DNA from: Candidatus Omnitrophota bacterium
GTDB lineage: Bacteria; Omnitrophota; Gorgyraeia; Gygaellales; Profunditerraquicolaceae
Direction: 5' to 3'
DNA: 42,333 nt
NCBI GenBank assembly: GCA_016208765.1
Contig: JACQXK010000060.1
Span: forward strand, 1-42,333
The notes below the pieces were generated by a model. The model saw only the letters and a list, made by a program, of their open reading frames with translations. It was not told where the DNA came from and did no database searches. This document shows positions 7,909 through 13,489 of the stretch, piece after piece (positions within the stretch are counted from its first letter, which is position 1; each line of letters begins with the position of its first letter). A program made the position numbers and the translations under genes.

Positions 7909-8301
7909 TTAAATTTTATAAACCTTATCCTGCTTTCTGACCCTTGAACTAACCAAGAGCCCAATTTCTTTGCCTTTTCCCGCTGAATTTATTGTAACGT
8001 GATCCAATTGCATTGAATCAATGCTTTGAGTTAAATCAGTAGTGTGGCCCTTTATTTTTATATTGTCTCCTGAAGATAATTGTCCGCTAAGCTTAATTGC
8101 TGCTGCGCTGACCTTAGGAAAATAATGCGTAACTACCCCAACGATTTTTCCTTCAACCAAGTTAGCGTTTTCTTTCTTAACAACTTTTTTTGGTTGAGCG
8201 CGTTTCTTAGCAGGTTTCTTTTTTGCTACGACCTTCTTGACTATCTTTTTTTTAGAGACGATTTTCTTTTTGCTCTTAATTTTCTTCTTTTTTAAAACCA
8301 T
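7909..8301 (-). CDS. EF-Tu domain-2-like protein with lysine-rich tail
   Basis: I choose ATG 8301 (MVLKKKK...), preceded by a GGCGGTGGAG ribosome site, over the longer frame that runs into the upstream gene. Residues 1-46 are almost entirely Lys/Val/Ala, like a histone-H1-type or ribosomal nucleic-acid-binding tail. Residues about 50-130 (VEGKIVGVVTHYF...SSGDNIKIKGHTTDLTQ) form a translation-factor beta-barrel like EF-Tu domain 2. Free-standing proteins with this barrel are annotated as elongation-factor-like. The GTPase domain is absent. A role at the ribosome or nucleoid is inferred. Confidence 0.65.
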   Translation of the reverse strand: MVLKKKKIKSKKKIVSKKKIVKKVVAKKKPAKKRAQPKKVVKKENANLVEGKIVGVVTHYFPKVSAAAIKLSGQLSSGDNIKIKGHTTDLTQSIDSMQLDHVTINSAGKGKEIGLLVSSRVRKQDKVYKI

Positions 8302-8314
8302 GCTCCACCGCCTT

Positions 8315-8641
8315 TCAAAGGATAACTTTTTCTGCAATGCGCGAAACAAAAGGGATTTTAATACAATTTCCTTTTATCGCATTAAAAATACCCCACAAGG
8401 ACACCAGAACAAAAACCGAGAATCCCAATGTTTTAATTAAAACTTGCAAAAGCGGAATGACCGAAAGAATAAAACTAACCACCTCAATAACAAAAAGCAC
8501 CAGCCCTTGCTTGGCATGATAAAGAACAAACTTATTATCTTTCTTTAAAATTAAACTTACAACGCAGAGAAAACTGATATAAGAAATTACGGCAAAAAAC
8601 TTGCCTTCTTGAATTTCTTCATTTACTAAAGGATCCGACAT
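8315..8641 (-). CDS. DUF4870/Tic20-like membrane protein
   Basis: This 108-aa protein has an acidic N-terminus (NEEIQEGKFFAVISY) and three or four hydrophobic segments, with the LYHAKQGLVLFV motif near residue 43 that marks the DUF4870/Tic20-like family. It is an inner-membrane protein of unknown function. It lies between the EF-Tu-like gene and the ParA-CBM48 gene, with short gaps, so could be cotranscribed with both. Confidence 0.72.
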   Translation of the reverse strand: MSDPLVNEEIQEGKFFAVISYISFLCVVSLILKKDNKFVLYHAKQGLVLFVIEVVSFILSVIPLLQVLIKTLGFSVFVLVSLWGIFNAIKGNCIKIPFVSRIAEKVIL

Positions 8642-8650
8642 AAACGCCTG

Positions 8651-9760
8651 TTAAGATTTATTTAAACCCACCTCAATCAAAGAATCCATTGTGCCATAAG
8701 GGTTGACTTCTTTAGCAGGATTACCTGAATCTTCCGTCCATTTTCCATCAATCACAAAACGATAATGATATTTTCCAGGAATCAGGTTCACTTTCTTACG
8801 CCAAGTACCATTCTCAGCTTCCATGCGATTCTTGGTATCAGTAGACCAGTTATTAAAATCACCAACTAAGAAAACTTCCTTTGCCCCAGGAGCTGATACT
8901 GTAAAAAATATTTCGTTTAATTTAGGCAACTTCTCTTTTATAACTTCCTTCATCTTTTTCTCTATTGCAGCAGGGGTAATTGCAGCTGGTGCTAAATGCG
9001 GAGTTTTTTCTTCGGTAATAATCTCACGCGAAAGGCTGAAATAATCTTTCGCTCCACGGCAGTATTTATCAAAATTAAAAATATGGGTACCTTGATTCTG
9101 GGCTTCCTTAAGCTTGACGTTAACATGGATAATATTGCTGAACATTCCTGCCTTGAAACTTGATTTAATCCGTTCAAGCATTGTAAAAGAATGCCTGAGG
9201 CGAGAATCAAAATTAGTCACTAAAACCCGGAAACTTACAGAATGGTTCAACCTGTCCTTAACTAAATCCATTATGCTTAAAAGCTGCGAAAGGCCTTCCA
9301 AGGAGAAGCGGCTTGCTTCTACGGGGATGATCACCTCACTTGAAGCACGGATAGCATTGATGGTAAGAATACCTAAATTTGGCGGACAATCAATTAAAAC
9401 ATAATCATAGAAATTCTTAAGATTATTCAGAGTATCCCAGACACGGGATTCCCTGCCGATTTCCCCTGCTAATTCCTGCTCAAGCGTGCTTAAAATAATG
9501 CTTGATGGGGCAATATCAAAATTGTCATCTACTTTGCGAATAATATCATCCAGGCGTGCTTTTTTATTGGTAAGCTTTGAAAGGACATTGTAAATACTCA
9601 GTTCAGTCTTAATATTCAACCCAAGGGTTGCATGCGCCTGCGGGTCAAGGTCAATTAATAAAACTTTTCTTCCATTATTTGCCAGTGAAGCCGCTAAATT
9701 TATTGCAGTGGTCGTTTTTCCGCATCCGCCTTTCTGATTTGTAATGGAAATTATGCGCAT
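8651..9760 (-). CDS. ParA-family ATPase fused to a glycogen-binding CBM48 domain
   Basis: Residues 1-230 are a ParA/Soj ATPase: deviant Walker A KGGCGKTTTAINLAASL near residue 10, DLDPQAHATLGL near 38, and DCPPNLGILTINAIRAS near 125. Residues about 290-369 are a separate AMPK-beta/CBM48 glycogen-binding domain (FFTVSAPGAKEVFLVGDFNN and GTWRKKVNLIPGKYHYRFVI). A linker near 250-285 joins them. No ParB gene or obvious parS lies nearby. The downstream neighbours include no other partition genes, whereas upstream are a jelly-roll protein and a GH57 glycosidase. I infer a ParA-type positioning ATPase that may recognise glycogen or another alpha-glucan. Confidence 0.88.
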   Translation of the reverse strand: MRIISITNQKGGCGKTTTAINLAASLANNGRKVLLIDLDPQAHATLGLNIKTELSIYNVLSKLTNKKARLDDIIRKVDDNFDIAPSSIILSTLEQELAGEIGRESRVWDTLNNLKNFYDYVLIDCPPNLGILTINAIRASSEVIIPVEASRFSLEGLSQLLSIMDLVKDRLNHSVSFRVLVTNFDSRLRHSFTMLERIKSSFKAGMFSNIIHVNVKLKEAQNQGTHIFNFDKYCRGAKDYFSLSREIITEEKTPHLAPAAITPAAIEKKMKEVIKEKLPKLNEIFFTVSAPGAKEVFLVGDFNNWSTDTKNRMEAENGTWRKKVNLIPGKYHYRFVIDGKWTEDSGNPAKEVNPYGTMDSLIEVGLNKS

Positions 9761-9786
9761 ACTCTTGCCTCCTGAGGTTAAAAGTT

Positions 9787-10350
9787 TTATTTTAGCAACC
9801 TGATGTTATCTATATAAACAACACCCTTTTTGCTCTTCGCGTTCCACTCTTCAACGCAAAATGAAAGGGTAGCCATTTCCGACCAGTCATGGATATGCTT
9901 AAAGTCTGCCAGGTTTATCTTAAAATCTCCCCAGTTCCGCGGAATATCTTTTATATAAACCTCAGACTTTTCTTTAAAAACATTCACAAATTCAATGCGC
10001 AACGATAATTTTTCTTCAAAATTAATGTTCTTCACGGAAAAACCAAGGACATTATATCTATTAAGGTTTAATTTGTTTAAATTAAGGGAGAATATTTCTT
10101 TTTTGGCGGGATCAAAATTAAAATTAATCTTTGTCGGGCTTTCAGATAAGAAAAGCGCAATTTCCTTATGATAAGCCATCCCCTTGACAACATTTCCAAA
10201 ATAAATTGCTCCAACAGAAATAAATAAAACCAATAATAGCACAACAACTTTATGCTGTTGAAACGTAAAAGGCTTTGCCTTTTTTTTCTTTTTAGAGGAA
10301 GCGTCAAGGTAAATCTTTGCTAAATGCTCATAAATATCTTTTTTATCCAT
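9787..10350 (-). CDS. Membrane-anchored CIA30/CBM11-like jelly-roll protein
   Basis: This 187-aa protein has a cytoplasmic Lys-rich head (SSKKKKKAK), one transmembrane helix at about residues 34-54 (VVVLLLVLFISVGAIYF), then an extracytoplasmic beta-sandwich. The end (IPRNWGDFKINLADFKHIHD ... VYIDNIRLLK) matches the jelly-roll pattern of CIA30/CBM11-type carbohydrate-associated domains, in which the final strand reads YIDNIRL. It sits between the GH57 gene and the ParA-CBM48 gene. Substrate is unknown. Confidence 0.62.
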   Translation of the reverse strand: MDKKDIYEHLAKIYLDASSKKKKKAKPFTFQQHKVVVLLLVLFISVGAIYFGNVVKGMAYHKEIALFLSESPTKINFNFDPAKKEIFSLNLNKLNLNRYNVLGFSVKNINFEEKLSLRIEFVNVFKEKSEVYIKDIPRNWGDFKINLADFKHIHDWSEMATLSFCVEEWNAKSKKGVVYIDNIRLLK

Positions 10351-10421
10351 TTTCCCTCAAGTATTTTACTTTTTATAACATAAAAGCATATAGCTGTCAA
10401 TATGTTATTGCAATTCTTACA

Positions 10422-11987
10422 TTAAATAGGATAATTCAAATAATCTGGTATTTCTTTATTTAATATTCTATAAAAATTTGATAAATGCATACGAAAAAGT
10501 TTATCAAAACTTCCGTTCGGGTCTTCCCCATACCACCAAAACCAATCGCTTCCTTCTAAAACATACATTTGTTTCCATGCCAATTCCAGCTTATCGTTTA
10601 TCCCTAACCGCATATCGCTATTTAGAACTTCCTGAAATTCTTTGCGTGCTTTTGCAAGATATTCCCAGGCCTTAACCTTCTGTGGATTTCCGATCCACTT
10701 GCCAAATTCTCCATAAATCCAGGAACCGGCGGCAAGGCGCTTGATTTCAAATTTAGGCGGAAACTTTTTTAAATACTGGCTGGGAGTAATGGTTGTAATT
10801 AATTTTGATTCAGACAACCTTGCATAAAGCAAATTTAAGAAATCATGGCCGTCATTTATAAAATATTCCCAGGCATTCTCTCCGTCCATTGCAATCGCAA
10901 CAAATATGTCTTTACCGACAAATGCCTTAGCGGTTTCTTCCAAATGCTTCATAAAATCATCTACTGCATGTTCCGGCTTCCAATTGCTATACGAAAACCC
11001 GATCAAATCAGAAAGGTTCCTATCACGAAAGATAATATTCAGTTCCCCTTCTTCTCTTTTTAAAAGATGAGGTTGATACAAAAGCTCAGTATCCCTTTTC
11101 TTTCTTTTTAATGATCTAAACAGGATGGCTTCGTCAGCCACAATCCACTTAATACCTGATTTAATTATAAAAGGCAGGATATGCTCGCTGACAGATTCTT
11201 CCGACGGCCACATACCAAGCGGTTTTGACCCAAATTTATCCTGAAAATATTCTACCGCGTTATCAACCTGGGCCTTAGCATCTTCAGGATAAGAAAAATT
11301 AACCTTTGGAAGCACAGCTCGCGGGTTTGCTTCTTTAGCAGTGTTTGTATTATAAAGTAACGGCAGGATAGGATGATAAAACGGGGTAACCGTAACCTCT
11401 ACCTGTTCTGATTGTGCAGCCTCTTTATAGGCCGGGATTATTTCTTCAAGTATAACTAAATGCTTATCCAGAACCGCACGTTTGTCCTCTTCATTAAAAA
11501 ACCTTGCCTTGCTAACAACCCTTTTTAATTCCGGTAAACTCTCCCTGAAAGATGGATCAATCCATGCCAAATTGAACCAAACCTGCAAATCAAGAAAATC
11601 CTGCTCGGTGAATTCCTTACCGGCTTTCATTTTAGAATAAAGCTCGTGATATCGCGGGCTAAAAGCAATTACCTTATCAGGGTTAATTGAGAAAAAGTTA
11701 TTTAAAATAAACTCTTTCTCTTCTAAGGTCAATAGCTTTGCCTGTTTGTAAGAAAGCTCTAAGAATTTATCTTTGATTGTCCTGTGCGTATAATCTTCAA
11801 TCTGCTCCAATAATGAAGGCACAAGATTAAATGTCTGTTTGATCTTGGGGTATTTTCCTAAGATCTGCAGCATATCCAGATAATCTTTTGTACCATGCAG
11901 CCTTACCCAGGGATAATCTGTTTCCTGTGTAAGCAGATTAACATAGTAAGGCTGATGCATATGAAAAATGAAAGACAGATATAACAT
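10422..11987 (-). CDS. Glycoside hydrolase family 57 protein
   Basis: This 521-aa protein opens with LSFIFHMHQPYYVN, the GH57 N-terminal HQP signature. GMWPSEESVSEHILPF near residue 258 holds the presumed catalytic Glu, and AIAMDGENAWEYF near residue 367 the acid Asp. WFWWYGED near residue 485 is also typical of the DUF3536/GH57 group. GH57 enzymes hydrolyse or transfer alpha-1,4 or alpha-1,6 glucan bonds (amylase, amylopullulanase, branching enzyme). No signal peptide is seen, so it acts in the cytoplasm, probably on storage glucan. The nearby CBM48-ParA fusion supports this context. Confidence 0.9.
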   Translation of the reverse strand: MLYLSFIFHMHQPYYVNLLTQETDYPWVRLHGTKDYLDMLQILGKYPKIKQTFNLVPSLLEQIEDYTHRTIKDKFLELSYKQAKLLTLEEKEFILNNFFSINPDKVIAFSPRYHELYSKMKAGKEFTEQDFLDLQVWFNLAWIDPSFRESLPELKRVVSKARFFNEEDKRAVLDKHLVILEEIIPAYKEAAQSEQVEVTVTPFYHPILPLLYNTNTAKEANPRAVLPKVNFSYPEDAKAQVDNAVEYFQDKFGSKPLGMWPSEESVSEHILPFIIKSGIKWIVADEAILFRSLKRKKRDTELLYQPHLLKREEGELNIIFRDRNLSDLIGFSYSNWKPEHAVDDFMKHLEETAKAFVGKDIFVAIAMDGENAWEYFINDGHDFLNLLYARLSESKLITTITPSQYLKKFPPKFEIKRLAAGSWIYGEFGKWIGNPQKVKAWEYLAKARKEFQEVLNSDMRLGINDKLELAWKQMYVLEGSDWFWWYGEDPNGSFDKLFRMHLSNFYRILNKEIPDYLNYPI

Positions 11988-12082: not shown

Positions 12083-13489
12083 TTAGAATGTAACTTTCAT
12101 TGAACCAATAACTTCACTTGCGGTGTCGCTGTTGGCTTTTGCAAAAGAAGCACCAGGTAAAAAGATGCCTCCCATTAAACCAAACTGCACATCTTCAGTG
12201 TAGTCATAGGTAGCTGTAAGATCAACTTCCTGTCCGGCAAATCTTCTGCCAGTCATATTGTAGTTATCTGTGCCGTTTCTTGCGGTGGCTGTAACTACGT
12301 TTACGCCATTTGGATAAGCCTTTGCCCACCAGAATGCATAATATTCACCTTTTAAGGTCACATCATCAACTGGTTTCATGGAAACGATACCACCGATAAT
12401 ATGAGCATTGGTTTGGTTAAACAAAGCATTGGCAATATCGCCAAACTTTTGGTTCTCAAACATTGGATCCCAGCCGCGCCATGCGCCGTTGTTGTTATCA
12501 ACAACATTATTCTCATGATCGCCGCTGAAATACGCATAGCAAAGCGAAGTAACTGGATTATACTTAACTTTCTTCCAGTTATAAGTAAGCATGGTTTCCA
12601 GTGCAAAAGCCCTGCGGTCTACTGCATGAGTAGGAGTAGCTGCTGTATAATTAGTATCTGTCGTCTGAGGTACTCTTGTTCCAAACTGAAAAGCACCTTC
12701 AACCTGAGCGGTTAAATTCTCAATCGGCTCGCTGGACACCCTTGCGCCGACGGTATTAACTGTATCAGGAGAACTCTTTCTGATCGTAGGATCAGTAGCG
12801 GCTCTTCCGGTGCGTTTCTCCCAAAAATAACCTTCAATAATAGTGTTCTTTTTCCCTAAATTGTAGTTAAGGTTTACACCATAAAGATCCATATCATCAT
12901 TTGGCTTTAAACCAGTCTCATTTATTTTTGCGGCAACTATATCTACAACCAGAGGATCATAATTCAAGGTTGCGCGAACAGCATCAAATGACTTGCGTGC
13001 TGTTAAATCACGGTCAGCACCATTAGCAGCCGTACCGAAAAACGGGCTGGCAGTTGTAACCTGGTTATTGGTATCAGGATCACCAAGGATCATATCATTT
13101 CCAAAATGCAGTTCCTGACGGCCAACGGTCAAGGTCAATGGTGAATACAAGAACTCTTTCATTGTTACATAAGCTAAATCCAGATTAATATCTGTATTTA
13201 CGCCACTAGTACCAGAATTATTGGTTTCATTACCCCAATATCTTTCATTGAGCAACCTGACTGTAGCAATAACATTATCTGTAAGGTCGGCATCAATTCT
13301 TACTCTAGCAATGCTTGCTAAAGCATTTTCTGTTGCCTGATTATTGCCACCTCTCATTGCCAAGTTACGGCTGATTCCGTAAACGGTTAAATCACCGCTT
13401 ACTTTTACATTCTGCACTTCTGCGTATGCGGCAAAAGCAATGCCGACTACGAAGGCTAATGTCAGAATTAATATTAAACGTTTACCCAT
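12083..13489 (-). CDS. Outer-membrane beta-barrel porin (alginate-export-like)
   Basis: This 468-aa protein has a Sec signal peptide of about 23 residues (KRLILILTLAFVVGIAFAAYA, cut before EVQ). The rest is beta-strand rich with alternating aromatic residues (VKVSGDLTVYGISRN, LTLTVGRQELHFGNDM, GLMGGIFLPGASF) and ends in MKVTF, the aromatic C-terminal residue recognised by the Bam machine. The arrangement resembles alginate-export (AlgE-type) porins. It is monocistronic between a promoter at 13661-13689 and a terminator. Start ATG 13489 has AAAGGAGGAAAC. Substrate is unknown. Confidence 0.82.
   Translation of the reverse strand: MGKRLILILTLAFVVGIAFAAYAEVQNVKVSGDLTVYGISRNLAMRGGNNQATENALASIARVRIDADLTDNVIATVRLLNERYWGNETNNSGTSGVNTDINLDLAYVTMKEFLYSPLTLTVGRQELHFGNDMILGDPDTNNQVTTASPFFGTAANGADRDLTARKSFDAVRATLNYDPLVVDIVAAKINETGLKPNDDMDLYGVNLNYNLGKKNTIIEGYFWEKRTGRAATDPTIRKSSPDTVNTVGARVSSEPIENLTAQVEGAFQFGTRVPQTTDTNYTAATPTHAVDRRAFALETMLTYNWKKVKYNPVTSLCYAYFSGDHENNVVDNNNGAWRGWDPMFENQKFGDIANALFNQTNAHIIGGIVSMKPVDDVTLKGEYYAFWWAKAYPNGVNVVTATARNGTDNYNMTGRRFAGQEVDLTATYDYTEDVQFGLMGGIFLPGASFAKANSDTASEVIGSMKVTF

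Follow-up and report, generated by a model that had tools for sequence, protein, structure and literature searches.

A ParA-type ATPase carrying a C-terminal CBM48 domain is encoded in the window, a 42,333-nucleotide stretch of DNA from a Candidatus Omnitrophota bacterium (contig C38 of a 2.4 Mb MAG), and belongs to a widespread ParA subfamily that has a single origin. Judging from its sequence, predicted structure and gene neighbourhoods, the fusion and its partner are best read as a new system of the ParA/MinD type for positioning or tethering, in which glucan binding is built in. We assign a probability of about 0.4 to the full proposal that the ATPase of this distinct subfamily carries its own alpha-glucan-binding module and that a cycle between the nucleoid and a partner-activator moves a glucan body. 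A sequence-only reading had recognised both the fusion, which is borne out by a single 369-residue frame, Pfam and AlphaFold, and its membership of a ParA/MinD-type system, which sequence, structure and phylogeny now uphold. It also knew of no described system of this layout, and we likewise found no description of a ParA with a CBM48 or glycogen-binding domain in the open-access (as distinct from subscription) literature.

Residues 1-176 of the fusion match the Pfam family AAA_31 (E 3e-56) and residues 292-365 match AMPK1_CBM (E 1.2e-13; 51.5 bits, cut-off 26.8), with an additional match to CBM_48 (E 2e-8). Matches in the PDB divide in the same manner, to Soj (8ray/1wcv) for the ParA part and to the AMPK beta CBM for the C-terminal part. 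The AlphaFold model (mean pLDDT 90.8) shows two folded domains with a weak stretch only at residues 255-260, and Foldseek places Soj closest to it, with BcsQ structures also among the matches. There is no MinD-type amphipathic membrane-targeting helix at the C-terminus, which is occupied by the CBM48. The sequences characteristic of the ParA/MinD family (KGGxGK[ST] with its signature Lys, the Motif 2 Asp and Walker B) are all kept in the fusion family, and K10, K15, D37, D39, H43, D124 and R187 are present in 81/81 aligned fusion proteins. K216 is Lys or Arg in 68/81 and aligns, together with R187, with basic residues of Soj. The basic residues expected to bind DNA are retained across the family by this alignment, and we infer that the fusion dimerises and binds the nucleoid. 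In the CBM48, W305, W320 and W341 are conserved in 80/80 sequences (one of the 81 being incomplete). From their motifs, we take W305 and W341 to be the equivalents of W100 and W133 in AMPK beta. The fusion is predicted on these grounds to bind alpha-glucan.

The active site has two peculiarities. Walker A contains a cysteine, Cys13 (KGGCGKT), towards which our pattern search was biased by the use of NQKGGCGK as one seed; this residue also occurs in loci L130 to L136, which came from an unseeded profile search. Secondly, a histidine (His43, window positions 9632-9634) stands in 81/81 fusions at the position of the ParA Motif 2 Asn, where the two Soj sequences in the alignment have Asn. Mapped by spacing, His43 would occupy the position of Asn64 in Myxococcus xanthus ParA, one of three residues that co-ordinate magnesium and the nucleophilic water (PMC12462528). 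The family-wide replacement of this catalytic-site Asn by His predicts an altered hydrolysis chemistry for all of the fusions.

The fusion is far from confined to one genome. In a protein search it was found at 47-76% identity in most of 58 genomes, comprising the window's own and its relatives. A profile search of 285 Omnitrophota genomes gave 234 matches at E<=1e-80, the weaker of which include ordinary ParA; at E<=1e-105 about 175 of the 285 genomes carry the fusion among the matches listed. These span essentially the whole profile, and the full-length architecture is present in at least 140 Omnitrophota genomes. A pattern-seeded search of named genomes retrieved 80 fusion loci from several phyla, with representatives in Desulfobacterota, Rokubacteria, Myxococcota, Planctomycetota, Eisenbacteria and one archaeal record. 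Since the same full-length architecture recurs across Omnitrophota and other phyla, the fusion is not a product of chance or of assembly. The binding aromatics of the CBM48, whose loss from all homologues would speak against glucan binding, are kept throughout the alignment (W305 and W341, 80/80). When the CBM was removed, the fused ParA domains formed one clade (support 100/100) apart from eleven Soj-type ParAs; only Soj-type outgroups were used in this tree, as ArsA-type outgroups had given a spurious split.

Two further observations concern copies of these domains elsewhere. One genome (G044) has two fusion matches (C104:2492-3601 and C121:2131-3255), the second of which reads through a TAG codon and may therefore be a paralogue in decay or reflect a mixture of strains. 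A stand-alone CBM48 protein of 91 residues (L001:1456-1731, G000:C62), which has counterparts in almost all of the relatives, is encoded beside lpxA-like, lpxI-like and radical SAM genes.

The features of the locus are collected in the table. Genes are transcribed from the minus strand in the order porin, GH57, membrane jelly-roll protein, ParA-CBM48, DUF4870-like protein and Lys-rich protein. The 26-nt gap upstream of the fusion gene is compatible with a single transcription unit, and a consensus promoter scan around the locus genes found sites no more frequently than in shuffled sequence. In the clade of the window the porin lies upstream in 29 of 35 loci, the DUF4870-like gene is present in 21/41 and the Lys-rich protein cluster, two genes past the fusion, in 32/41. 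The start of the Lys-rich protein was set at an internal ATG (8301), and a Pfam scan gave no significant match for it. No ParB-family gene is found in the window and no ParB Pfam match among the neighbours or partners scanned. Pfam and NCBIfam scans of the neighbours found neither an McdB partner nor a carboxysome operon, and the fusion loci share no conserved gene for a glycosyltransferase or for export.

Table. Features of the ParA-CBM48 locus, in window positions
Feature	Positions	Strand	Basis or remark
ParA-CBM48 fusion, 369 aa	8651..9760	minus	One open frame; Pfam, PDB matches, AlphaFold, Foldseek
ParA domain, residues 1-252	9005-9760	minus	Part of ParA-CBM48
Linker of ParA-CBM48	8918-9004	minus	
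CBM48 domain, residues 282-365	8666-8917	minus	Part of ParA-CBM48
Single-pass membrane jelly-roll protein	9787..10350	minus	Model, fold match, conserved -1 position
Jelly-roll protein, predicted cytosolic N-tail MDKKDIYEHLAKIYLD	10300-10350	minus	Most conserved segment
Jelly-roll protein, TM helix	10183-10263	minus	
Jelly-roll protein, predicted extracytoplasmic CBM11/30-like domain	9790-10158	minus	
GH57 alpha-glucan-active enzyme, 521 aa	10422..11987	minus	Pfam Glyco_hydro_57, 1.6e-65
Outer-membrane porin, Alginate_exp family	12083..13489	minus	Pfam, 2.4e-25
Small DUF4870-like membrane protein	8315..8641	minus	Pfam DUF4870, E 0.014, below cut-off
Protein with Lys-rich (histone H1-like) N-terminus and C-terminal domain resembling EF-Tu domain 2	7909..8301	minus	ORF list; domain read by eye

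Outside the clade of the window, the gene downstream of the fusion in most relatives encodes a protein that starts with (K/R)xLGRGL(E/A/S)D(I/V)SHxFLS, for example in the form (K/R)xLGRGLEDISHLFLS. A strict version of this motif (L[GPR][RK]..DISxxFL) occurs in 15 loci, always at a distance of 27-320 nt downstream of the fusion; the fetched locus DNA has no other instance in any of the six frames. Variants bring the total to 23 of 80 loci, and some form of the box is carried by 7/7 deep Omnitrophota loci examined, giving 30 loci in all. The box, as in the L106 partner peptide MREKSLGRGLEDISQIFLSK, resembles the start of the ParB of the window's own genome, MERRSLGKGINAL. A ParB box of like kind has been shown to bind ParA (PMC12462528), and short, positively charged N-terminal extensions are a common design among ParA activators (PMC7993993). 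By its sequence, the LGRGL box is a putative ParA-activating N-terminal box of the ParB type. The sequence-only reading that the fusion has no ParB therefore holds in that no ParB CTPase is present, but a partner does exist: the LGRGL-box protein in relatives and, as the candidate in the clade of the window, the jelly-roll protein.

The remainder of the box partner is ParA-like, although most members have no recognisable Walker A; its profile (A4) weakly matches true ParAs, and the L086 partner retains a CbiA match. In Desulfobacterota (L079-L081 and L106) the box partner has a different, shorter form. Pfam detected neither a DNA-binding ParB domain nor a CTPase domain in the box partner. A third gene often follows it (e.g. 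L101:12165-12809, L103:7864-8538, L104:11940-12737 and L095:2811-3494), whose product has no Pfam match and, by eye, reads like a PD-(D/E)XK fold with its catalytic residues apparently lost. In the deep Omnitrophota loci L131, L132, L134 and L136 the fusion operon, made up of ParA-CBM48, the motif protein and the third gene, directly precedes genes for mraZ, a STAS protein, rsmH, ftsL and ftsI (names read from sequence), and several deep loci have proB-proA-nadD genes on the upstream side.

The LGRGL box is absent from the window; the tail of the neighbouring protein (MDKKDIYEHLAKIYLD) is not significantly similar to it. Profile A4 found no box-partner homologue in the window's genome; in relatives it gave only weak matches, of which several are true ParAs. 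The gene adjacent to the fusion instead encodes the membrane protein that the sequence-only reading had described as a jelly-roll neighbour, rightly so according to its AlphaFold model (pLDDT 88.5) and to Foldseek, whose best matches are CBM11 and CBM30. The model comprises an N-terminal helix (residues 3-17), a TM helix (30-56) and the jelly-roll (65-186), and a Lys-rich stretch preceding the TM helix suggests that the tail is cytosolic and the jelly-roll extracytoplasmic. The gene is found at position -1 of the fusion in 50/81 loci with a median gap of 17 nt. The tail (MDKKDIYEHLAKIYLDASSKKKK in the window) makes the first 17 residues of the protein its best conserved part, at 1.29 bits compared with 2.14 for the jelly-roll and 2.64 for the TM helix.

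Over 88 loci the jelly-roll partner is present in 50, the motif partner in 30, both in none and neither in 8, of which 3 end at contig edges. This mutual exclusion at the same locus fits the replacement of one activator by another, and we propose that the jelly-roll protein is an activator and anchor whose tail replaces the LGRGL peptide. As the clade with the jelly-roll partner is supported at 97/82, the exchange may go back to a single event. We do not claim that the two peptides share an ancestor, since homology of the tail to the LGRGL/DISHLFLS motif was significant neither by PWM (AUC 0.77, none above the 99th percentile) nor by hhalign, where scores did not exceed the controls. Two positions near the ParB pocket differ between the clades, position 58 being N in the clade of the window and D/E in the motif clade, and position 96 being E and mostly K, respectively. 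A region-level shift at this pocket (p 0.0016) was not clearly beyond that of control clade splits (0.03-0.66).

In the mechanism that we favour, ATP-bound ParA-CBM48 dimers would bind the nucleoid through the conserved basic residues while the CBM48 grips an alpha-glucan body, be it a glycogen granule or an enzyme complex bearing glucan. The short N-terminal activator peptide of the partner would then trigger ATP hydrolysis and release, so that the glucan body is kept at intervals, retained or passed on and does not diffuse. In most lineages beyond the clade of the window the partner would be the soluble protein that carries the LGRGL box of ParB type on a degenerate ParA-like body, in many cases with the nuclease-fold-like protein encoded after it; in the clade of the window the cytosolic tail of the membrane partner would act at the inner membrane, with the jelly-roll facing the periplasm.

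By the features tested, the fusion system belongs to neither ParABS, McdAB nor MinD, although it probably works like a ParA/MinD positioning pair. It shares with ParABS (Soj/Spo0J) the ParA fold and active site, the DNA-binding basic residues and, in most relatives beyond the clade of the window, the LGRGL N-terminal box of the partner, but differs in its C-terminal CBM48, in Cys13 and His43, in a partner without ParB CTPase and HTH, and in forming a separate clade. In the window's genome ParB_N matches occur only on contigs C78 and C79, and the one on C79 immediately follows a canonical ParA. McdAB and other ParA/MinD cargo systems (PMC6328274, PMC10241942) similarly combine a ParA-type ATPase with an activator, and a non-DNA cargo is proposed here too; in the fusion, by contrast, the cargo-binding module would be on the ATPase itself, and McdB and carboxysome genes are lacking. 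Glycogen is not mentioned in the reviews and surveys consulted. The module itself is of the same Pfam family as the glycogen-binding module of AMPK beta, with the same binding aromatics, but is joined to a ParA ATPase rather than forming part of a kinase subunit. The granule tethers PhaF (PMC13052382) and AlgP have an H1-like Lys-rich tail, and the H1-like protein encoded two genes from the fusion recalls their granule-to-nucleoid connection; no ParA features in these systems as reviewed, and the Lys-rich protein of the window is a candidate tether by likeness.

The alpha-glucan genes bear on the identity of the cargo. The GH57 of the window is full-length (E 1.6e-65) and keeps both catalytic motifs, MWPSEES and AMDGENAWEYF, which align with solved GH57 chains (9jlq) and retain the Glu and Asp expected of this fold. 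The sequence-only reading was correct in naming a GH57 neighbour, but the gene lies upstream of the jelly-roll gene in just 15 of the 35 loci of this clade with 3 kb of upstream sequence. Beyond the clade, alpha-glucan neighbours occur at three loci, within what chance might give. In L088 and L104 a GH57 branching enzyme lies five genes from the fusion, and in L107 GlgB is the next gene downstream; L107 clusters tightly with a Desulfobacterales sequence, so that transfer or misbinning is possible. Of 20 fusion genomes, sampled mainly outside the clade of the window, 7 have no GT5 glycogen synthase; three GT5-less Rokubacteria genomes have GlgE and GH57, and three Myxococcota genomes gave no match to GT5, TIGR01515 (GlgB-type branching enzyme), GH57 or GlgE. 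Gaps in the MAGs may account for some of these absences. Among the matches listed for Omnitrophota, about 166/260 GT5-positive and 9/25 GT5-negative genomes carry the fusion, a co-occurrence that is weak because GT5 is nearly universal there and that is confounded by phylogeny and completeness.

Glycogen, suggested as cargo by the sequence-only reading, is plausible but not established as such: partitioning in the strict sense is unproven given the missing GT5 and the three Myxococcota without a match to any of the four families, in addition to the partial GH57 adjacency. We consider it doubtful that a nucleoid-based ParA partitions glycogen between daughter cells by means of a cargo module on the ATPase and a lineage-swapped activator, membrane-anchored in most Omnitrophota.

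The presence of the fusion in genomes without detected glycogen synthase could also be understood if the CBM48 were a sensor, reporting glucan or soluble oligosaccharide to a ParA switch that regulates, for example, division or envelope growth. Membership of the AMPK1_CBM family accords with such a role, as do the membrane jelly-roll and porin neighbours, which point to the envelope, and the position ahead of mraZ-rsmH-ftsL-ftsI in L131, L132, L134 and L136. However, the division-cluster context is limited to one clade, neighbours differ elsewhere, and the retained DNA-binding residues and ParB-like activator suit a spatial cycle better, so that we regard sensing as rather unlikely. It is improbable that ParA-CBM48 organises an inner-membrane complex for an exported polysaccharide, with the CBM48 binding glycan or protein, as a counterpart of BcsQ, the ParA/MinD-family ATPase linked to cellulose secretion. 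The constant membrane neighbour with a CBM11/30-like jelly-roll in the clade of the window, the upstream porin (29/35 loci) and the BcsQ structures among the Foldseek matches agree with this, but the nearest ParAs are Soj, BcsQ is of another subfamily without a CBM, neither Bcs genes nor a conserved glycosyltransferase or export gene are found at the locus, and the membrane partner is absent from most lineages beyond the clade of the window. Similarly improbable is the reading that the fusion is a partition ATPase of the chromosomal or plasmid type and that its CBM48 has turned into an E-set domain that binds protein and has nothing to do with glucan: the partner bears a ParB-type N-terminal box, and in glycoside hydrolases a CBM48 fold may serve a structural purpose, yet W305 and W341 are invariant, the partner lacks a DNA-binding ParB or CTPase domain, and the genome has a separate ParA-ParB pair.

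ParA/MinD ATPases place DNA, carboxysomes, chemoreceptors and division complexes, and glucan binding is the likely novelty of the ParA-CBM48 family. If it is true, carbon storage would join the list of ParA/MinD cargoes, or carbon status would be tied to a spatial switch; if glycogen is indeed partitioned, this would be the first case of a ParA system devoted to a polysaccharide. The family also represents a natural example of what looks like a change of activator inside a single ParA family, and it provides a concrete candidate function for a gene that most of the sampled genomes carry in a phylum with hardly any cultured members.
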